Positions 2,348-56,135 of a stretch of DNA of 64,000 bases are shown piece after piece. This DNA is from a virus. Position 1 is the first letter of the stretch; the number at the start of each line of letters is the position of its first letter. The notes below the pieces were generated by a model. That model made no database searches, was not told the origin of the DNA, and saw only the letters and a program-made list of their open reading frames with translations. The DNA lies in IMG/VR virus record IMGVR_UViG_3300023174_000003, positions 1 through 64,000 of that record. One strand, written 5' to 3'. A program made the position numbers and the translations under genes.

Positions 2348-3904
2348 ATGGGCTTTAAGGGAGCAAATAGCTTCGGGTCTTTTGAACGTAAGAAAGACTT
2401 TGTTGTTAAAAATGTTACCCCTATCACCACTGAATTTTCTAAAGGAAGTGTCCGTGGTTCTATTGCTGCTGTAAACAGAGAATCTGCTTGGACAAGATGG
2501 CGTCGTGGCTATGAGCTATCCTCGTCCAGCTCTTATGACAACGCATATCAATATAGATTTATATATGATATTCCGTTCCCTTCAGGGACAATAACACCTT
2601 CTGGCACTAATCCCGTCTCGACTGTTTCAGGTGCATTCAAAGGATTTCCAACCACAGCAAAAGAATTTGGTATGCACTGGGCTGGTGTTCGTAACCAGGG
2701 CAACATGCGTACTGATGAGTTATTTGATTCGTTGGGTGAAAGACTTTCAGTTGTAAATGTTACAGAAGACAATTATTTCTGGTACGTACAACTAAAGGGT
2801 ACTTGGAGTTCAAGCAACCCGTTACCCGCACCCTTGTATGCCACAGTCTCTGGTGTTACCACACCACTCAAACCAATGAATGGTGAGATCCTAGAGGACA
2901 GGATAATCACAGTCAGTGGCACACCAATAACAGCAACTACAATCAATCCTAATACACAAAAAAGATATGGCTATGTCCAGGCTGTGCTAGTTGACGTAAA
3001 TCAAGATGCAGGAATTCTTAAATTAAAAAAAGCTGGGTCCGTAGAAGTAACACATGACAAAGCATTTTTAACACCAGCAACTAAGCCACCTGCTATAGGG
3101 AGATTTTTAATTACTGGCAATAGATATGCTTGCACTTGTCAAGACTTCACACATAGAGATTACTTCTTTATGTCATCAATCAATAACACAACTAGAAAAT
3201 ATTTTCCGTATTCAAGTGTTACATCAATCAAACCCGGACGTTATGAAAACATCACACTAAGTGGTGAGCTTGATAACAACACAACATCATATTCATTAAA
3301 TGACAGGGTAATGAATGTTGTTGCGCCTTCAGCTACGTATCAACTATTAGATGACATTGCTATATCAGAAGTAAATCGTTTAGCAACAAGAGACAACCCC
3401 GGTGTATTTAGAGACTTTGGCGCCACTTATGTACGTAGCACAACAGACTTATCACTCCCTGGTAATACAGCGGAAGGCATGCCTGTGTACACAGACTACT
3501 CACAAGAGCAGAATGTAATTACAAGCTTGGGCGATAACTGGGCACCAGTGTTAGATGAAATGCGTTATTGCAAACATATCTATTCAATGAAGTTTCAGGA
3601 ACATGTGTTTCCCCCTGAACCTTCTGATTTTCCCGTAGGAATGGATTCAATGGCTGAGTGGGAGCAAAAACTGGTACAAGAAGCAGAAGATAATCAAAAA
3701 CAATACCAAGCATTTAACGTAACCAAAAAAGCATTAAGTTACATGGATGTTCCACCATACAACTGTCAATCTCCTGTGATGGCTCCAATGTTACAAAAGT
3801 TGTTTAACATTCCAAATCAAATTGTCAGCCTGTCAGGCTTCAGAATGATTGACAAAACGGGACATATTTACATACCAGCTTCAGGAGAAAAGCCTTCTCT
3901 GTAG
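2348..3904 (+). CDS. Putative virion structural protein with widely split CxC...CxH zinc motif
   Basis: 518 residues. The N-terminal half is beta-rich and Ser/Thr/Gly-rich. Cys262-x-Cys264 followed by QDF, and Cys408-x-His410 followed by IY, match the two halves of a SWIM zinc finger (CxC...CxH) but are 143 residues apart instead of the usual 6-25. The C-terminal ~90 residues hold an acidic Glu/Gln-rich helix and a Pro-rich tail. Follows the preceding structural gene by 2 nt and is the last gene before a gap with possible promoter sequence. I would call it virion structural; the metal site is inference. Confidence 0.6.
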   Translation: MGFKGANSFGSFERKKDFVVKNVTPITTEFSKGSVRGSIAAVNRESAWTRWRRGYELSSSSSYDNAYQYRFIYDIPFPSGTITPSGTNPVSTVSGAFKGFPTTAKEFGMHWAGVRNQGNMRTDELFDSLGERLSVVNVTEDNYFWYVQLKGTWSSSNPLPAPLYATVSGVTTPLKPMNGEILEDRIITVSGTPITATTINPNTQKRYGYVQAVLVDVNQDAGILKLKKAGSVEVTHDKAFLTPATKPPAIGRFLITGNRYACTCQDFTHRDYFFMSSINNTTRKYFPYSSVTSIKPGRYENITLSGELDNNTTSYSLNDRVMNVVAPSATYQLLDDIAISEVNRLATRDNPGVFRDFGATYVRSTTDLSLPGNTAEGMPVYTDYSQEQNVITSLGDNWAPVLDEMRYCKHIYSMKFQEHVFPPEPSDFPVGMDSMAEWEQKLVQEAEDNQKQYQAFNVTKKALSYMDVPPYNCQSPVMAPMLQKLFNIPNQIVSLSGFRMIDKTGHIYIPASGEKPSL

Positions 3905-49011: not shown

Positions 49012-50715
49012 TCAGTTAGATACTAGGTCCTTCTCACGGATCTGTAAAGCTTCTTGGAATATACCTTGATATTTCTCACGTTCTATAGATGTCAATGATC
49101 TGTTACTTGGTCCTGCAATCTGTTCTACATGCATGGTGCCATTGGATACCTTGAGTTGTATTGTGAATACAGGCTTGTTGTCAACCATACATAAGACAAT
49201 GAATTGTTTCTTAGCTTTTATAAGATTGGCATATGTTGATGATGCACCTACACAATTACGTACTGCTTGCCCCCATTGTGCAAGCTGATGAGTATCTATG
49301 GGTTGAATGAATGTCCAGATCTCATCAGCAAGTTTTACTTTGACAGGAACAGGGAATAAATCCTGTGGTAGTTTTTGGTTTGGGTTACTTATCTTCCAGG
49401 CTTCTGCTTGTACATGATCATGGAACTCAGTGTAACGCCAACGCCTAGGCGGAGTAAGTTCTTTACCTGCAGCTAATACATTATTAATCATGTCCATTGT
49501 ATCTCTAAATAAATAGAATGTAAGCATATAACAATTCAGTTGATTATCTTTATGCCTATTACTTGGCTTTTCATCTTCTATATATTTGTTTAGCATATTA
49601 AATAATGATGCCACTGGTAGGTTGGTTGCTAGCCATTTCTTTGCTAACGAATCAGTTTTATAATAAGCGATTGAATGGATACGGCCAATAGATAAAAACA
49701 TATTGGTTTGTATTCCAGTCTGTAAATAATCCATAGGGCAGTCAGGATATATATCAAGGATATCTAGAATCCAAGCCAAAGTATGTATAAGTTTTTTGTG
49801 TATAGAACTAATTTCTTTCTTGGACTTAGTGGCTGGATCATTGAACGTATTAATAATTAATTGACATTGCTCATTGATGTAACGTTTAAACCATGGCTTA
49901 CCAAGTTTCTCTTGCATAACAGTAAATGATCTATCTAAATTTTGGGTATACCGTAGCCTTAGTATTTCTATATACAATTCAAAGCTAGGCACAATGTTTT
50001 GATTCTTTGGTATTGATGTATGATGTAATTCTAATAGTTCATGGTAATTATTTTTAGCCGTATCTATTCTGTCCCATACACCACCATCAGTATAAGTAGG
50101 TATTGAATTTATAATGGCTTCTCTGAATGGTTGTATTACACTTGGTCTTATCTCTTTACCTTTTGTATTGTATCCTTTGAAGTTACCATGTTCCCAATAG
50201 TGTGATTGACATCCATTAGATATATCTTCTGCTGTTACAAACTTTGTATAGACATTGAACTCTATGCGTCCATACTTTTTGATAGTAGTATCTTTTCTAT
50301 TTATGTCTCTAATGTATACCTGTTTGCATGTAGTTTCTGTATTCTTAAATGCATAAGTAAACCCATAGATATAATCTTCACCTGGGTTAGGTAACCATGC
50401 TGCAATCCACAAGGATTCGTAGTGGTACACAACAGCTTTAAGTTTTGTTGTGGCTACCATATCTTTATCATATGTAACACGACTAAAAGTATGATAGCGA
50501 TATGGAACTTCTTCTTGGTTAATAGCAATTATTGCTGCAAGTAAATTGCTAGGCATAACAATGTGTGCAGGGATAATATCATTAGGCAAGCCAAGATGAA
50601 AGCGTGGTTTCTTAGGCTTGCTTACAGGAGTAGTAGCAGCTTTAGCCAAAGCTTTTAACTTTGGATCATAAGCTAATAGTTCTGTGCGCAGGTTGGCGGG
50701 TAGTTGGAATTGCAT
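49012..50715 (-). CDS. PcfJ-like protein
   Basis: 567 residues. The C-terminal ~100 residues (HQLAQWGQAVRNCVGASSTYANLIKAKKQFIVL...PVFTIQLKV...HVEQIAGPSN) match the PcfJ domain first described on conjugative plasmids and often found in phages, with unknown role; the conserved NCVG Cys and Gln are present. N-terminal 450 residues are large and unassigned. Behind leader A5. Confidence 0.65.
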   Translation of the reverse strand: MQFQLPANLRTELLAYDPKLKALAKAATTPVSKPKKPRFHLGLPNDIIPAHIVMPSNLLAAIIAINQEEVPYRYHTFSRVTYDKDMVATTKLKAVVYHYESLWIAAWLPNPGEDYIYGFTYAFKNTETTCKQVYIRDINRKDTTIKKYGRIEFNVYTKFVTAEDISNGCQSHYWEHGNFKGYNTKGKEIRPSVIQPFREAIINSIPTYTDGGVWDRIDTAKNNYHELLELHHTSIPKNQNIVPSFELYIEILRLRYTQNLDRSFTVMQEKLGKPWFKRYINEQCQLIINTFNDPATKSKKEISSIHKKLIHTLAWILDILDIYPDCPMDYLQTGIQTNMFLSIGRIHSIAYYKTDSLAKKWLATNLPVASLFNMLNKYIEDEKPSNRHKDNQLNCYMLTFYLFRDTMDMINNVLAAGKELTPPRRWRYTEFHDHVQAEAWKISNPNQKLPQDLFPVPVKVKLADEIWTFIQPIDTHQLAQWGQAVRNCVGASSTYANLIKAKKQFIVLCMVDNKPVFTIQLKVSNGTMHVEQIAGPSNRSLTSIEREKYQGIFQEALQIREKDLVSN

Positions 50716-50738
50716 GTGAGTGAATAATGAGTGGGATG

Positions 50739-50767
50739 CAGGCAGTTTAACGTCATGCCTGAGGACG
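50739..50767 (-). promoter_or_regulatory. Leader A5
   Basis: Minus strand: CGTCCT, stem CAGGCA, loop TGACGTTAAAC, stem TGCCTG. 23 nt before the PcfJ-like ATG; the spacer is C/A/T-rich without Shine-Dalgarno. Confidence 0.75.
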
Positions 50768-51222: not shown

Positions 51223-51435
51223 TCAGACCTCCTGTAGTTGTTGTGTAGCCACAGCCACTGGCTGCTGAAACGCAGAGCCAGGACCATAGCGTTGGACTAG
51301 ATCTGGGAATGCACCTAGGATACGTTGACGGTTAGTGGGATCAGCATACCGTAGTGCGTTGGCCATAGTACTGACGAACTTGCCGCCGTACTTGGTCATG
51401 GTCTCGGTCATGTGATAAATCTCAGTGCTGGTCAT
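51223..51435 (-). CDS. Small conserved phage protein, 70 aa
   Basis: Start ATG 51435, 21 nt after leader A6. KYGGKFVSTMANALRYADPTNRQRILGAF is a motif I recall from other phages and mobile elements. Helical. Function unknown. Confidence 0.6.
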   Translation of the reverse strand: MTSTEIYHMTETMTKYGGKFVSTMANALRYADPTNRQRILGAFPDLVQRYGPGSAFQQPVAVATQQLQEV

Positions 51436-51456
51436 GAGTTGAGTTGCGGTGGGACA

Positions 51457-51485
51457 CAGGCAGTTTAACGTCATGCCTGAGGACG
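51457..51485 (-). promoter_or_regulatory. Leader A6
   Basis: Same core as A5. The 55 nt from 51431 to 51485 are identical to those at 52817-52871, including the start codon of each gene. Confidence 0.75.
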
Positions 51486-52549: not shown

Positions 52550-52821
52550 TACTTGTGTAGCTCCTGGTGTTGTTGCCAATGGGCAGCATGAATCTCTGCT
52601 GCTGTAACAGCGGACTCACCTCCGGTGTTGTCATAGAGATACTCAGGTGTTGGGTCATAGCCCGTCACCTCTTCTAATGCATCGATGCAGTCTGAGATAG
52701 TATCCAGCATCCACTGTGGTGCAGAATACATTTGGTCTTTGGCTTCCTCTTGTTTGAGGACAGCGTTCATCTTTTTGATCCAGCGTTCGCATGCGCACTC
52801 TGGAGTCTTGTCTAAAGTCAT
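52549..52821 (-). CDS. Hypothetical protein, 90 aa
   Basis: From ATG 52821, 21 nt after leader A7. Helical, Cys at CACERW. Unknown function. Confidence 0.5.
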   Translation of the reverse strand: MTLDKTPECACERWIKKMNAVLKQEEAKDQMYSAPQWMLDTISDCIDALEEVTGYDPTPEYLYDNTGGESAVTAAEIHAAHWQQHQELHK

Positions 52822-52842
52822 GAGTTGAGTTGCGGTGGGACA

Positions 52843-52871
52843 CAGGCAGTTTAACGTCATGCCTGAGGACG
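52843..52871 (-). promoter_or_regulatory. Leader A7
   Basis: Identical core to A5/A6 (stem CAGGCA/TGCCTG, loop TGACGTTAAAC). 21 nt before the ATG of the 52549-52821 gene. No Shine-Dalgarno. Confidence 0.75.
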
Positions 52872-53298: not shown

Positions 53299-53319
53299 GG
53301 TGTGAATGCGATTGGATGT

Positions 53320-53346
53320 CTGCGTTGTAAGGATGCGCAGCCCCCT
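53320..53346 (-). promoter_or_regulatory. Leader B1
   Basis: Minus strand: AGGGGG, stem CTGCG, loop CATCCTTACAA, stem CGCAG. 21 nt before ATG 53298. Spacer C/A/T-rich. Confidence 0.7.
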
Positions 53347-53695: not shown

Positions 53696-53924
53696 GGTGA
53701 ATCTCCTGTGGGTGTGATTGTAGTTGTGTGATGTCAATACCTGCGGCTGCCATTACGACAGTTGCAATAATAAATGTCATCAACACAAAGGTTGTGGCAT
53801 CTAATACTTTGCCGAGCATTTTTGAGCTCAATACTTTTCTAAGCATTTTTAAGTGCATGATAGATTTGCGTTGGTACGAATCAAGTTCAACGTAACGGCC
53901 TACAATTTTATGGTAGTTCTTCAT
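53688..53924 (-). CDS. Single-pass membrane protein, 78 aa
   Basis: Hydrophobic segment ~45-65 (TFVLMTFIIATVVMAAAG). Basic N-terminus. Overlaps the other membrane-protein gene by 8 nt; may form a pair. Function unknown. Confidence 0.6.
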   Translation of the reverse strand: MKNYHKIVGRYVELDSYQRKSIMHLKMLRKVLSSKMLGKVLDATTFVLMTFIIATVVMAAAGIDITQLQSHPQEIHHD

Positions 53925-54118
53925 TACATTCCATATAGTATGTCACTGTCTTCGTCCTCGTTAATAAGCTCAAATTGAGACCACAAACGATAAGTTTCTA
54001 TAGTGTTTGCAATGCCGTGGGTGTGGCTTGCATATTTTCGTGCTTCATTTATATCGTTAAAACATGTATCAATGTTCTTGTCAACAGGGTGATACACAAT
54101 GTGAACGTAGTTAGCCAT
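53924..54118 (-). CDS. Hypothetical protein, 64 aa
   Basis: Strand then helix, acidic C-terminus. Start ATG 54118 has GGAGA upstream plus leader B2. Unknown function. Confidence 0.5.
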   Translation of the reverse strand: MANYVHIVYHPVDKNIDTCFNDINEARKYASHTHGIANTIETYRLWSQFELINEDEDSDILYGM

Positions 54119-54145
54119 TAGATTCTCCGTTGTAGTTGTGAATGC

Positions 54146-54172
54146 CTGCGTTGTTAGGATGCGCAGCCCCCT
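54146..54172 (-). promoter_or_regulatory. Leader B2
   Basis: Minus strand: AGGGGG, stem CTGCG, loop CATCCTAACAA, stem CGCAG. 27 nt before ATG 54118. One loop base differs from B1. Confidence 0.7.
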
Positions 54173-54179
54173 CGTGTTA

Positions 54180-54493
54180 GATTAACTTGGGGTGAAGAAG
54201 AACCGTGTCAGCCCCTTCATACAAGGGAACCAGGATTTTTACGGTCTCTCCTGGTTGGTAACAGACGAGCTGTGCCACTGATCATGGGGCAGCTCCTCCC
54301 TTATCTTAATTCTTGCAGACATGTATAGGGTCAGGACGCAATAGTCCTTCAGCTCGTGCGGCGGGCGCCCTATGCCTGCTACAACTTTAGGTTCATCACG
54401 CCTAAAGAAGTTTGTTGGAACTCTTCTGAGTTCCTAGACGAGTCAACTCCTGGCCAGGAGGGTCAGCTGAACCCTCCAAAGCATAGCAGGTTT
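54180..54493 (-). ncRNA. Hairpin-dense gene-free region; candidate structured RNA
   Basis: No coding frame fits. Visible stems (+ coordinates): 54228-54235/54249-54256 (8 bp, perfect); 54267-54272/54290-54295; 54324-54331/54367-54374 enclosing 54333-54337/54344-54348; and a domain closed by 54375-54381/54484-54490 that contains 54386-54391/54401-54406, 54417-54423/54428-54434 (TTCT loop), the palindrome 54447-54460, and 54457-54463/54471-54477. Immediately follows the stop of a minus-strand gene and ends at leader B2, so it is probably transcribed as minus strand, but wobble pairs do not settle the strand. Family unknown. Confidence 0.6.
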
Positions 54494-54495
54494 AA

Positions 54496-54750
54496 CTAAT
54501 CTTCGATGCCATACTCCTGCTCATATTTAAGCAAGAGTGCGTTTCGGTCAACACACTTCTTGAGGAATTGTGCCAATGGATGCAAAGCATCCCACTCTAA
54601 TGCACCGTCTTGCCACTGGAAGTACATCTCCAGTAGCTCGGTACGTTTCTGTTCAATAGACCAATCAACACAAGGGTGTTGAACAGTCGAGTCTCGCCTG
54701 GCAAGCAGACGTGCATCTTTTATGATGCGTTCAACCGTAGCACTGGTCAT
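54496..54750 (-). CDS. Hypothetical protein, 84 aa
   Basis: From ATG 54750 (MTSATVERIIKD). Helical, basic N-terminus, acidic end (YEQEYGIED). Behind leader C1. Stop at the edge of the structured region. Unknown function. Confidence 0.5.
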   Translation of the reverse strand: MTSATVERIIKDARLLARRDSTVQHPCVDWSIEQKRTELLEMYFQWQDGALEWDALHPLAQFLKKCVDRNALLLKYEQEYGIED

Positions 54751-54762
54751 GATTGTGAGTAA

Positions 54763-54828
54763 GCCACACTCAGTGTGTGGCAATAACTGGACCAGGGTTT
54801 GCACCTGGTCACCCGCTTTAACGGATCA
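54763..54828 (-). promoter_or_regulatory. Leader C1 (two hairpins)
   Basis: Minus strand order: CCGTTAAAGCGGG at the upstream stop; hairpin GACCAGG-TGCAAAC-CCTGGTC; linker with AGTTATTGCC; hairpin GCCACAC-actga-GTGTGGC. 12 nt before ATG 54750. First stem differs from C3 but pairs; loop TGCAAAC identical. Confidence 0.65.
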
Positions 54829-54987
54829 GCTTGCTTGACGCATCTCCACTAATAGCTCAACCAGTATCTGGTTGTAACTTTTACTAGATTCTTTGGAGTG
54901 ATATTCTGCTATCACTTGTGCATCATCTAACTCTTTGTTGCTGAAGGTGCCCATAAACTTGAACAGTTGTTCGTAAGTAAGTGTCAT
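54826..54987 (-). CDS. Small acidic protein, 53 aa
   Basis: ATG 54987, TGA 54826-54828; reads MTLTYEQLFKFMGTFSNKEL and ends VEMRQAS. Helical. Too short for the ORF threshold but bounded by leaders on both sides. Unknown function. Confidence 0.5.
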   Translation of the reverse strand: MTLTYEQLFKFMGTFSNKELDDAQVIAEYHSKESSKSYNQILVELLVEMRQAS

Positions 54988-55001
54988 TAAATTGATGCTG
55001 T

Positions 55002-55077
55002 GCAGGTGCCCATCTCCTGCGGACTAGGCAATACTGAGTAGGGGATTCGATCCCCCGGCATCACGCCTGGTACTCAG
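55002..55077 (-). promoter_or_regulatory. Leader C2 with acceptor/T-arm-like fold
   Basis: Minus strand: CTGAGTA pairs with TACTCAG and encloses a GGC-gtgat-GCC hairpin and a GGGGAT-cga-ATCCCC stem resembling a tRNA T-arm; then AGTATTGCC linker and hairpin GCAGG-agatgggca-CCTGC. 14 nt before ATG 54987. Takes the place of the TGCAAAC hairpin of C1/C3. Confidence 0.6.
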
Positions 55078-55244
55078 AACGGAATCTCATCAAACGACTC
55101 CACACATGAATCAGTAGCTGGATCATCAATGACCCAGCCTTCTTCCTCTGCTTCTGCTTCTAACACCCATTGAGGTGTGTTATTTGCTAACCAGATATCA
55201 TGAAGGAGTTGTTCTTGATGAATGTTGCTAGGTTGAATACGCAT
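55074..55244 (-). CDS. Small acidic protein, 56 aa
   Basis: ATG 55244, TGA 55074-55076; reads MRIQPSNIHQEQLLHDIWLA and ends ESFDEIPF. The end DEIPF resembles the tail of SSB proteins that recruits partners. Between leaders C2 and C3. Unknown function. Confidence 0.5.
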   Translation of the reverse strand: MRIQPSNIHQEQLLHDIWLANNTPQWVLEAEAEEEGWVIDDPATDSCVESFDEIPF

Positions 55245-55259
55245 TTAACTGTGAGCTGT

Positions 55260-55334
55260 GCAGGTGCCCATCTCCTGCGGACTAGGCAATGACTGTGGGA
55301 GGGTTTGCACCTCCCAACCCGCTTTAACGGATCA
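55260..55334 (-). promoter_or_regulatory. Leader C3
   Basis: Minus strand: CCGTTAAAGCGGG at the upstream stop; hairpin TGGGAGG-TGCAAAC-CCTCCCA; linker AGTCATTGCC; hairpin GCAGG-agatgggca-CCTGC (identical to C2). 15 nt before ATG 55244. Confidence 0.65.
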
Positions 55335-55559
55335 GCAACCAAGCATCTCGTCCACGTAGGACTTGATGACTTGGAGTTGGTCTCGGTTAAGTGTCTGGCT
55401 ACGGCCATACTCCAAAAGGTCAAGGACCTGGAGCATGACGCTTTCGCCAGCCTCTTCACGAGACGGTACGCCACACATGTCGAAGATCTCATTACGAGAC
55501 ATCTCAGTGATGTCAACGCAATCGATCTTACGAACGGTGGCGATGGTGGTCTTAGTCAC
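55332..55559 (-). CDS. Hypothetical protein, 75 aa, GTG start
   Basis: GTG 55559 with GGAG 8 nt upstream. Ends with stop that lies in leader C3. Acidic helix with Cys (VDEMLGC). Unknown function. Upstream leader holds divergent A8. Confidence 0.55.
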   Translation of the reverse strand: MTKTTIATVRKIDCVDITEMSRNEIFDMCGVPSREEAGESVMLQVLDLLEYGRSQTLNRDQLQVIKSYVDEMLGC

Positions 55560-56084: not shown

Positions 56085-56108
56085 GATTTGAATGCGAGTG
56101 TGTACAAC

Positions 56109-56135
56109 CTGCGTTGCAAGGATGCGCAGCCCCCT
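56109..56135 (-). promoter_or_regulatory. Leader B3
   Basis: Minus strand: AGGGGG, stem CTGCG, loop CATCCTTGCAA, stem CGCAG. 24 nt before ATG 56084. Preceded by TATATATA, a possible -10. Confidence 0.7.

Follow-up and report, generated by a model that had tools for sequence, protein, structure and literature searches.

A structured RNA family of uncultured viruses related to cyanophage S-EIV1 shares a kissing-loop module with the cyanobacterial RNA CyVA-1

GOLLD, ROOL and OLE are conserved, structured and autonomous non-coding RNAs, some of them found in phages, and in the purine, lysine, cobalamin and guanidine riboswitches and the hammerhead a contact between two loops organises the junction. 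Structures of GOLLD, ROOL and OLE are described in PMC12286853. The Rfam family nearest to the RNA described here is CyVA-1 (RF02965), an sRNA from cyanobacteria to which no function has been assigned; its loop GAAGGAGAACGACGUCA is similar to loop C of the phage RNA. The locus lies in a stretch of 64,000 nucleotides of virus DNA (the window), contained in a 79,791-nt IMG/VR virus record whose kin is the cyanophage S-EIV1 (Synechococcus host). A sequence-only reading had proposed a gene-free block in this window as a candidate non-coding RNA, a proposal that our analysis supports and to which it adds the strand, the kissing loops, a putative promoter, a family and the link to CyVA-1 (Table 1). 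An Rfam hit had been named as evidence that would count against the proposal, and searches of the window at gathering and relaxed thresholds returned chance matches alone. It had also not been possible to match the block to tmRNA, RNase P, 6S or group I introns, in agreement with the Rfam result and with the lack of any tRNA or tmRNA in the block by ARAGORN and Rfam.

Table 1 Features of the RNA and its surroundings in the 64-kb window
Feature	Position	Strand	Description
Flanking small gene	53924-54118	-	64 aa
-10-like box	54178-54183	+	TAGATT, 5' of the RNA, read from the sequence; putative promoter
Whole conserved RNA unit	54187-54498	+	~312 nt; identity in L004/L005 and fold z = -4.07
Conserved core	54187-54303	+	117 nt; profile match and pair counts; common to the phage family
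Hairpin C	54189-54215	+	5-bp stem GGGGU/GCCCC; 17-nt loop GAAGAAGAACCGUGUCA at 54194-54210
Kissing strand in loop C	54202-54206	+	ACCGU; partner 54241-54245
P1	54223-54302	+	closing stem around hairpins B and A; AAGGG 54223-54227 / CCCUU 54298-54302
Hairpin B	54228-54256	+	8-bp stem, 13-nt loop UUUUUACGGUCUC
Stem of hairpin B	54228-54235 with 54249-54256		8 bp, AACCAGGA/TCCTGGTT
Kissing strand in loop B	54241-54245	+	ACGGU; partner 54202-54206
Joining strand	54257-54266	+	GGUAACAGAC; family consensus UGGNAACUGA from 85 sequences
Hairpin A	54267-54295	+	long stem with UG/KG step
3' domain	54304-54498	+	stem 54326-54372, then multi-branch domain closed by 54375-54381/54484-54490
Closing stem	54375-54490		CCTGCTA/TAGCAGG
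Stem	54385-54407		CTTTAGG/CCTAAAG
Stem	54417-54434		GGAACTC/GAGTTCC
Flanking small gene	54496-54750	-	84 aa

The block is kept at 96.8% and 94.8% identity in two IMG/VR relatives (L004 and L005), its absence from relatives having been another result that would have weakened the proposal. In the same two records the upstream flanking gene is 82.0–85.5% identical and the downstream one 79.0–84.0%; thus a block that is gene-free and antisense to its neighbours can, in a compact phage genome, be better conserved than they are. Each flanking gene is an intact ORF of its own, has homologues of about equal length and matches no family in Pfam or PHROGs. In L004 a separate insert stands between the stop codon of the upstream gene and the block, leaving the end base of the block unchanged, and L005 lacks the leader hairpin found at the block's other side, which together indicate that the conserved unit has sharp ends of its own near 54187 and 54498. 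This 312-nt unit agrees with the 250–310 nt guessed beforehand. The longest ORFs in the block are of 33 aa (- strand) and 47 aa (+ strand) and relatives differ by 2-nt indels, so that no ORF on either strand accounts for it, as the sequence-only reading had held. Folded on the + strand the unit reaches -116.3 kcal/mol (z = -4.07), a value equalled by none of 100 shuffles; the stems named earlier are all present where they had been placed, and are more numerous than chance predicts.

A profile of the block recovered its first 117 nt, on the + strand, in other phage contigs. With a degenerate pattern built from two loops at least 119 stretches of viral contigs were found, and a covariance model of the core matches at least 91 phage loci with 85 distinct sequences; more exist. 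Since the loop pattern and the covariance model had both included the window, profiles were made without it. The profile lacking the window, L004 and L005 finds 54187–54303 on the + strand of the 64-kb window at E = 6.8e-19, and that lacking the whole freshwater group finds the same core at E = 2e-17, the next best match being at E = 1.3. By this independent profile, and by its loops C and B with complementary kissing strands, its P1 and its hairpin A, the core of the block is a member of an extensive RNA family in cyanobacterial viruses, undescribed until now and a strongly supported addition to what is carried by uncultured aquatic viruses related to S-EIV1. The hosts are presumably cyanobacterial, to judge from the kinship with S-EIV1 and from psbA.

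Beyond these contigs the searches were negative within their scope. S-EIV1 has no copy of the RNA by profile or by a scan for the kissing loops; the core model matched none of 194 cyanobacterial genomes, under strict filters that make this weak evidence; and when the block and several relatives were compared by blastn with 50,697 phage records, no related match was found. In a pattern scan of genome contigs the matches listed were chance coding matches alone, none fitting the profile, and the first pattern, made from the 5' end in a - strand reading, found two close relatives alone together with chance matches (L007, L009). No description of the RNA was found in the main texts of the open-access papers searched.

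Read on the + strand, the elements of the core follow in the order hairpin C, P1, hairpin B, joining strand, hairpin A and P1'. Across the 85 sequences the cells of hairpin C are 98.8% paired with double changes at 5/5 pairs, those of P1 94.7% (4/5), of hairpin B 93.3% (8/8) and of hairpin A 97.4% (11/11). Taken over the set, 96.1% of cells pair and 28 of the 29 pairs show double changes, with a covariation score of 0.886 against 0.220 when shuffled and at most 0.19 when slid. The alignment was fitted to the model and therefore leans towards it, a minor concern given how low the slid controls fall and how many double changes there are. In ten sequences checked by hand, 98.8% of cells pair and double changes are found at 20/34 pairs, and neither the percentage paired nor the covariation score was matched in 500 shuffles.

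The two loops pair with one another. Kissing cells are paired in 592 of 595 cases in the 85 phage sequences, and the two central pairs, which were left as N in the search pattern, pair in 170/170 cells with four and five pair types; for the other loop letters, that pattern itself imposes part of the conservation. In the ten hand-checked sequences 4/5 kissing pairs show double changes. ACCGU/ACGGU is the sole kissing-loop pair of this 17-/13-nt kind in the window. Thus the family is structured, with a kissing pair and a conserved unit of the size given above, and the block is almost certainly a real structured RNA.

The 3' domain is kept only in the window's close relatives, with 185–189 of its 195 bases identical in two of them. 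The stretch 54352–54498 folds with z = -3.44 on the + strand and -2.07 on the - strand, and of the changes that tell G-U from A-C among the three sequences two favour + and one favours -; with so few substitutions the covariation evidence here is weak. In a further relative (L265) the multi-branch extension at the 3' end is a different one, indicating that the core carries variable 3' domains.

The explanation that fits best, and which we hold with reasonable confidence, is a phage-encoded structured sRNA read from the + strand, with a promoter of its own and a CyVA-1-like kissing-loop module. That it is an independent RNA, separately transcribed and acting in trans, we consider probable. The main rival is a cis-acting leader or riboswitch, in which the kissing-loop fold would sense a ligand and control a gene or element 3' on the same strand. 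Its compact, aptamer-like fold and invariant loop and junction bases would suit such a role, and in three contigs (L327 1688–1866, L271 2886–3070, L292 1464–1676) the RNA stands in tandem with a glutamine riboswitch on one strand, the riboswitch beginning 11–60 nt 3' of it. In some lineages a same-strand ORF, a tRNA or this riboswitch lies close 3', which is compatible with a leader too. Counting ORFs of 100 aa or more, however, the nearest one downstream is on the same strand in 47 of 75 loci and on the opposite strand in 28, the window included, where the next gene converges. No constant same-strand gene follows the RNA, and downstream genes vary between lineages. With neighbours on either strand, the RNA is not attached to any single gene downstream, and we regard the leader role as unlikely. 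The neighbours include what we take, by eye, to be psbA, psbD, transaldolase-like and high-light-inducible genes; further neighbours are tRNAs and a LAGLIDADG gene (L353, Pfam LAGLIDADG_2, 1.6e-7).

Six contigs (L272, L324, L336, L338, L347, L348) have the C/B kissing pair directly 5' of a small ORF (MTREKLTEI..). In the L272 type this ORF starts ~10 nt after hairpin B, a placing that speaks for a leader, and AGGAGG lies between C and B; the arrangement is possibly a cis-control variant. Two other ideas were tried on the genomic context and set aside: a packaging RNA, for which no link to terminase was seen, and an RNA preceding DUF4278 genes, for which there was no Pfam match.

The sRNA reading also has to be weighed against a mobile or hitch-hiking origin, in which the RNA, as an intron remnant or a selfish element, would have spread along with homing endonucleases. 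LAGLIDADG or HNH genes do adjoin the RNA in several contigs (the LAGLIDADG gene of L353; an HNH-like ORF in L089), it is absent from S-EIV1, and its position and orientation vary by lineage. Against this, no split gene was seen at the RNA in the loci examined, Rfam gives no group I or II match, each record has one copy, and the family appears to keep its own promoter box. Moreover, in a marine clade the RNA has a fixed syntenic place ~1.4 kb from the major capsid gene. Such an origin is therefore improbable. The capsid gene of this clade has S-EIV1 as its sole match among cultured phage records (70%), and of 74 further capsid loci that were searched, some of them fragments, 28 carry the RNA. 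As a separate observation, four marine relatives (L368, L315, L285, L363) have major capsid genes in several pieces lying hundreds of bases apart, with LAGLIDADG-like ORFs near the broken gene in L363; these are probably multiple introns.

The strand of the RNA is given by its wobble pairs. Read on the + strand the core has 27 G-U cells against one A-C, and these 27 would become mismatches if it were read on the - strand; with the fold z-scores, this assigns the RNA to the + strand, opposite in sense to the small genes on its flanks. A - strand element, being a leader or an intergenic mRNA part of the small-gene operon, would suit the direction of those genes and the folding of the wider 377-nt stretch, which has z of about -2.8 to -2.9 on either strand (-2.89 on -), but it is hardly credible given wobble pairs compatible with + alone, a conserved unit that folds better on + and relatives that place the RNA in either orientation to its neighbours. 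Structured DNA, a cruciform or protein-binding site, is just as improbable: inverted repeats can extrude on either strand and the 3' domain has the palindromes CAGCTG and CTCCTGGCCAGGAG, but the 27:1 bias, the long-range kissing pairs with unpaired conserved loops and the fixed place of the -10 box all oppose it.

For the sRNA that we favour, transcription would start from the -10-like box TAGATT. In the 85 distinct sequences a peak of information for TANNNT is found 5–10 nt before the core, with no peak at -35, and from the position of the box the 5' end of the RNA would be the foot of hairpin C. A terminator consistent across the family was not found and U enrichment 3' of the core is modest; one relative (L264) has a hairpin and a U-run there.

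The block had been described as lying between two leader-controlled genes. Recurrent leaders adjoining it are real, but they are elements separate from the block RNA. One, on the - strand 5' of small genes (54779–54830 and 55285–55336 in the window; 2706–2757 and 3001–3052 in S-EIV1, L006), has the layout GCUG-AUCCGUYAAAGCGGGU-stem-GGUGCAAACC-stem-CAGU. Its pattern GATCCGTYAAAGCGGGT matched 88 viral stretches, a GUGCAAAC loop comes next at 78/92 sites, the stems covary, and the element (AUCCGUYAAAGCGGGU leader) is absent from Rfam. A recurrent hairpin, AGGGGGCUGCGCAUCCUAACAACGCAG, is found just 5' of small genes at 53313–53346, 54139–54172 and 56102–56135 (- strand), and is present too in S-EIV1 (L006 ~2407) and relatives. 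An identical 36-nt leader, GCCUAGUCCGCAGGAGAUGGGCACCUGCACAGC, with a Shine–Dalgarno-like GGAG in a hairpin, occurs at 54997–55032 and 55255–55290 (- strand), and in many phages variants of it come after the AUCCGUYAAAGCGGGU leader. The repeat CGUCCUCAGGCAUGACGUUAAACUGCCUG lies 5' of small genes at 50713–50767, 51431–51485 and 52817–52871 (- strand), and its motif GACGUUAAACUG adjoins the new RNA in L119, L310 and L372. Finally, a hairpin leader resembling a tRNA T-arm, GGGGGAUCGAAUCCCC, at ~55036–55084 (- strand) is flanked by a short acceptor-like stem UGAGUA/UACUCA and is not part of a full tRNA; it is seen elsewhere in L004 (2087–2131) and L005 (1797–1840, 2925–2970).

The closest likeness to the phage core is found in the loops of CyVA-1. 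Its 17-nt loop, GAAGGAGARCGAYGUCA, is nearly identical to phage loop C, and the pattern GAAGGAGA..CG.YGUCA on a hairpin is present in loop C of the window. At all 12 CyVA-1 loci examined a hairpin with a 13-nt loop, omitted from the Rfam model, lies 45–120 nt 3' of the 17-nt loop; its sequence, UUUYURNCGYUUC in 11 of the 12 with one variant, is nearly identical to that of phage loop B. Hairpins with such a 13-nt loop number 11 in the 256,620 nt of cyanobacterial regions analysed, all at CyVA-1 loci. In nine hand-aligned loci 52 of 54 CyVA-1 kissing cells are paired, for example with G-C replacing A-U on both sides. With the same two loops and complementary kissing strands in both, the phage RNA and CyVA-1 share one kissing-loop module. 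A conserved partner gene for CyVA-1 was also sought: a protein of ~230 aa is encoded upstream in 5/11 loci and not in the others, and no function follows from it.

From these features a mode of action can be proposed. The RNA would be transcribed from the + strand, most probably by a -10 promoter of its own immediately 5' of 54187. Its 5' core folds into hairpin C followed by a three-way junction of P1 and hairpins B and A, with the 17-nt loop C kissing the 13-nt loop B. The kissing helix is flanked by two invariant loop sides, one A-rich (loop C) and one U-rich (loop B), which may stack on it or contribute triples. In the window the lineage-specific 3' multi-branch domain comes after the core. 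The resulting stable RNA might then offer a kissing-loop platform to a component of the cyanobacterial host that binds the same platform of CyVA-1-type host RNAs as well, the phage RNA imitating such an RNA or competing with it. The host partner is a guess, and although binding of this kind is the mechanism we favour, we think it less likely than not. CyVA-1 is found in 9 of 117 sampled cyanobacterial genomes and in none of the very small ones listed (1.8–2.2 Mb), a rarity and an absence suggesting that competition may not apply to picocyanobacterial hosts. The wider proposal, offered tentatively as something that may prove right but on which we would not rely, is of a new RNA superfamily defined by one 17-/13-nt kissing-loop module in CyVA-1 and the cyanophage sRNAs, the phage version imitating or sequestering the host's reader of the module during infection and some lineages adding 3' domains. 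The phage RNA also opens to experiment the question of how RNA in place of protein could influence the host during infection.

Like GOLLD, ROOL and OLE, the phage RNA is a conserved, structured non-coding RNA; it is much smaller, has a different fold and has no Rfam match. The glutamine riboswitch (RF01739), of cyanobacteria and cyanophages, is likewise a structured RNA of aquatic phages, but a separate element with its own Rfam match, whereas the phage core itself has none. From the riboswitches and ribozymes built on kissing loops it differs in having other loops, no Rfam match and no tie to a same-strand gene. CyVA-1 has features of its own, namely an outer stem, one more hairpin before C, a long linker from C to B and a different 3' domain. 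The phage RNA has neither that outer stem nor the additional hairpin: it starts at hairpin C, with the -10 box directly 5' of it, its C–B linker is short, and it possesses P1 and hairpin A of its own. At the CyVA-1 gathering score of 41.4 bits the window has no match, and among the phage relatives scanned at a relaxed threshold the highest score is 25.1. The phage RNA is thus distinct from CyVA-1, yet common descent of the two is likely, and the orphan CyVA-1 gains from the comparison its missing half, the kissing partner.
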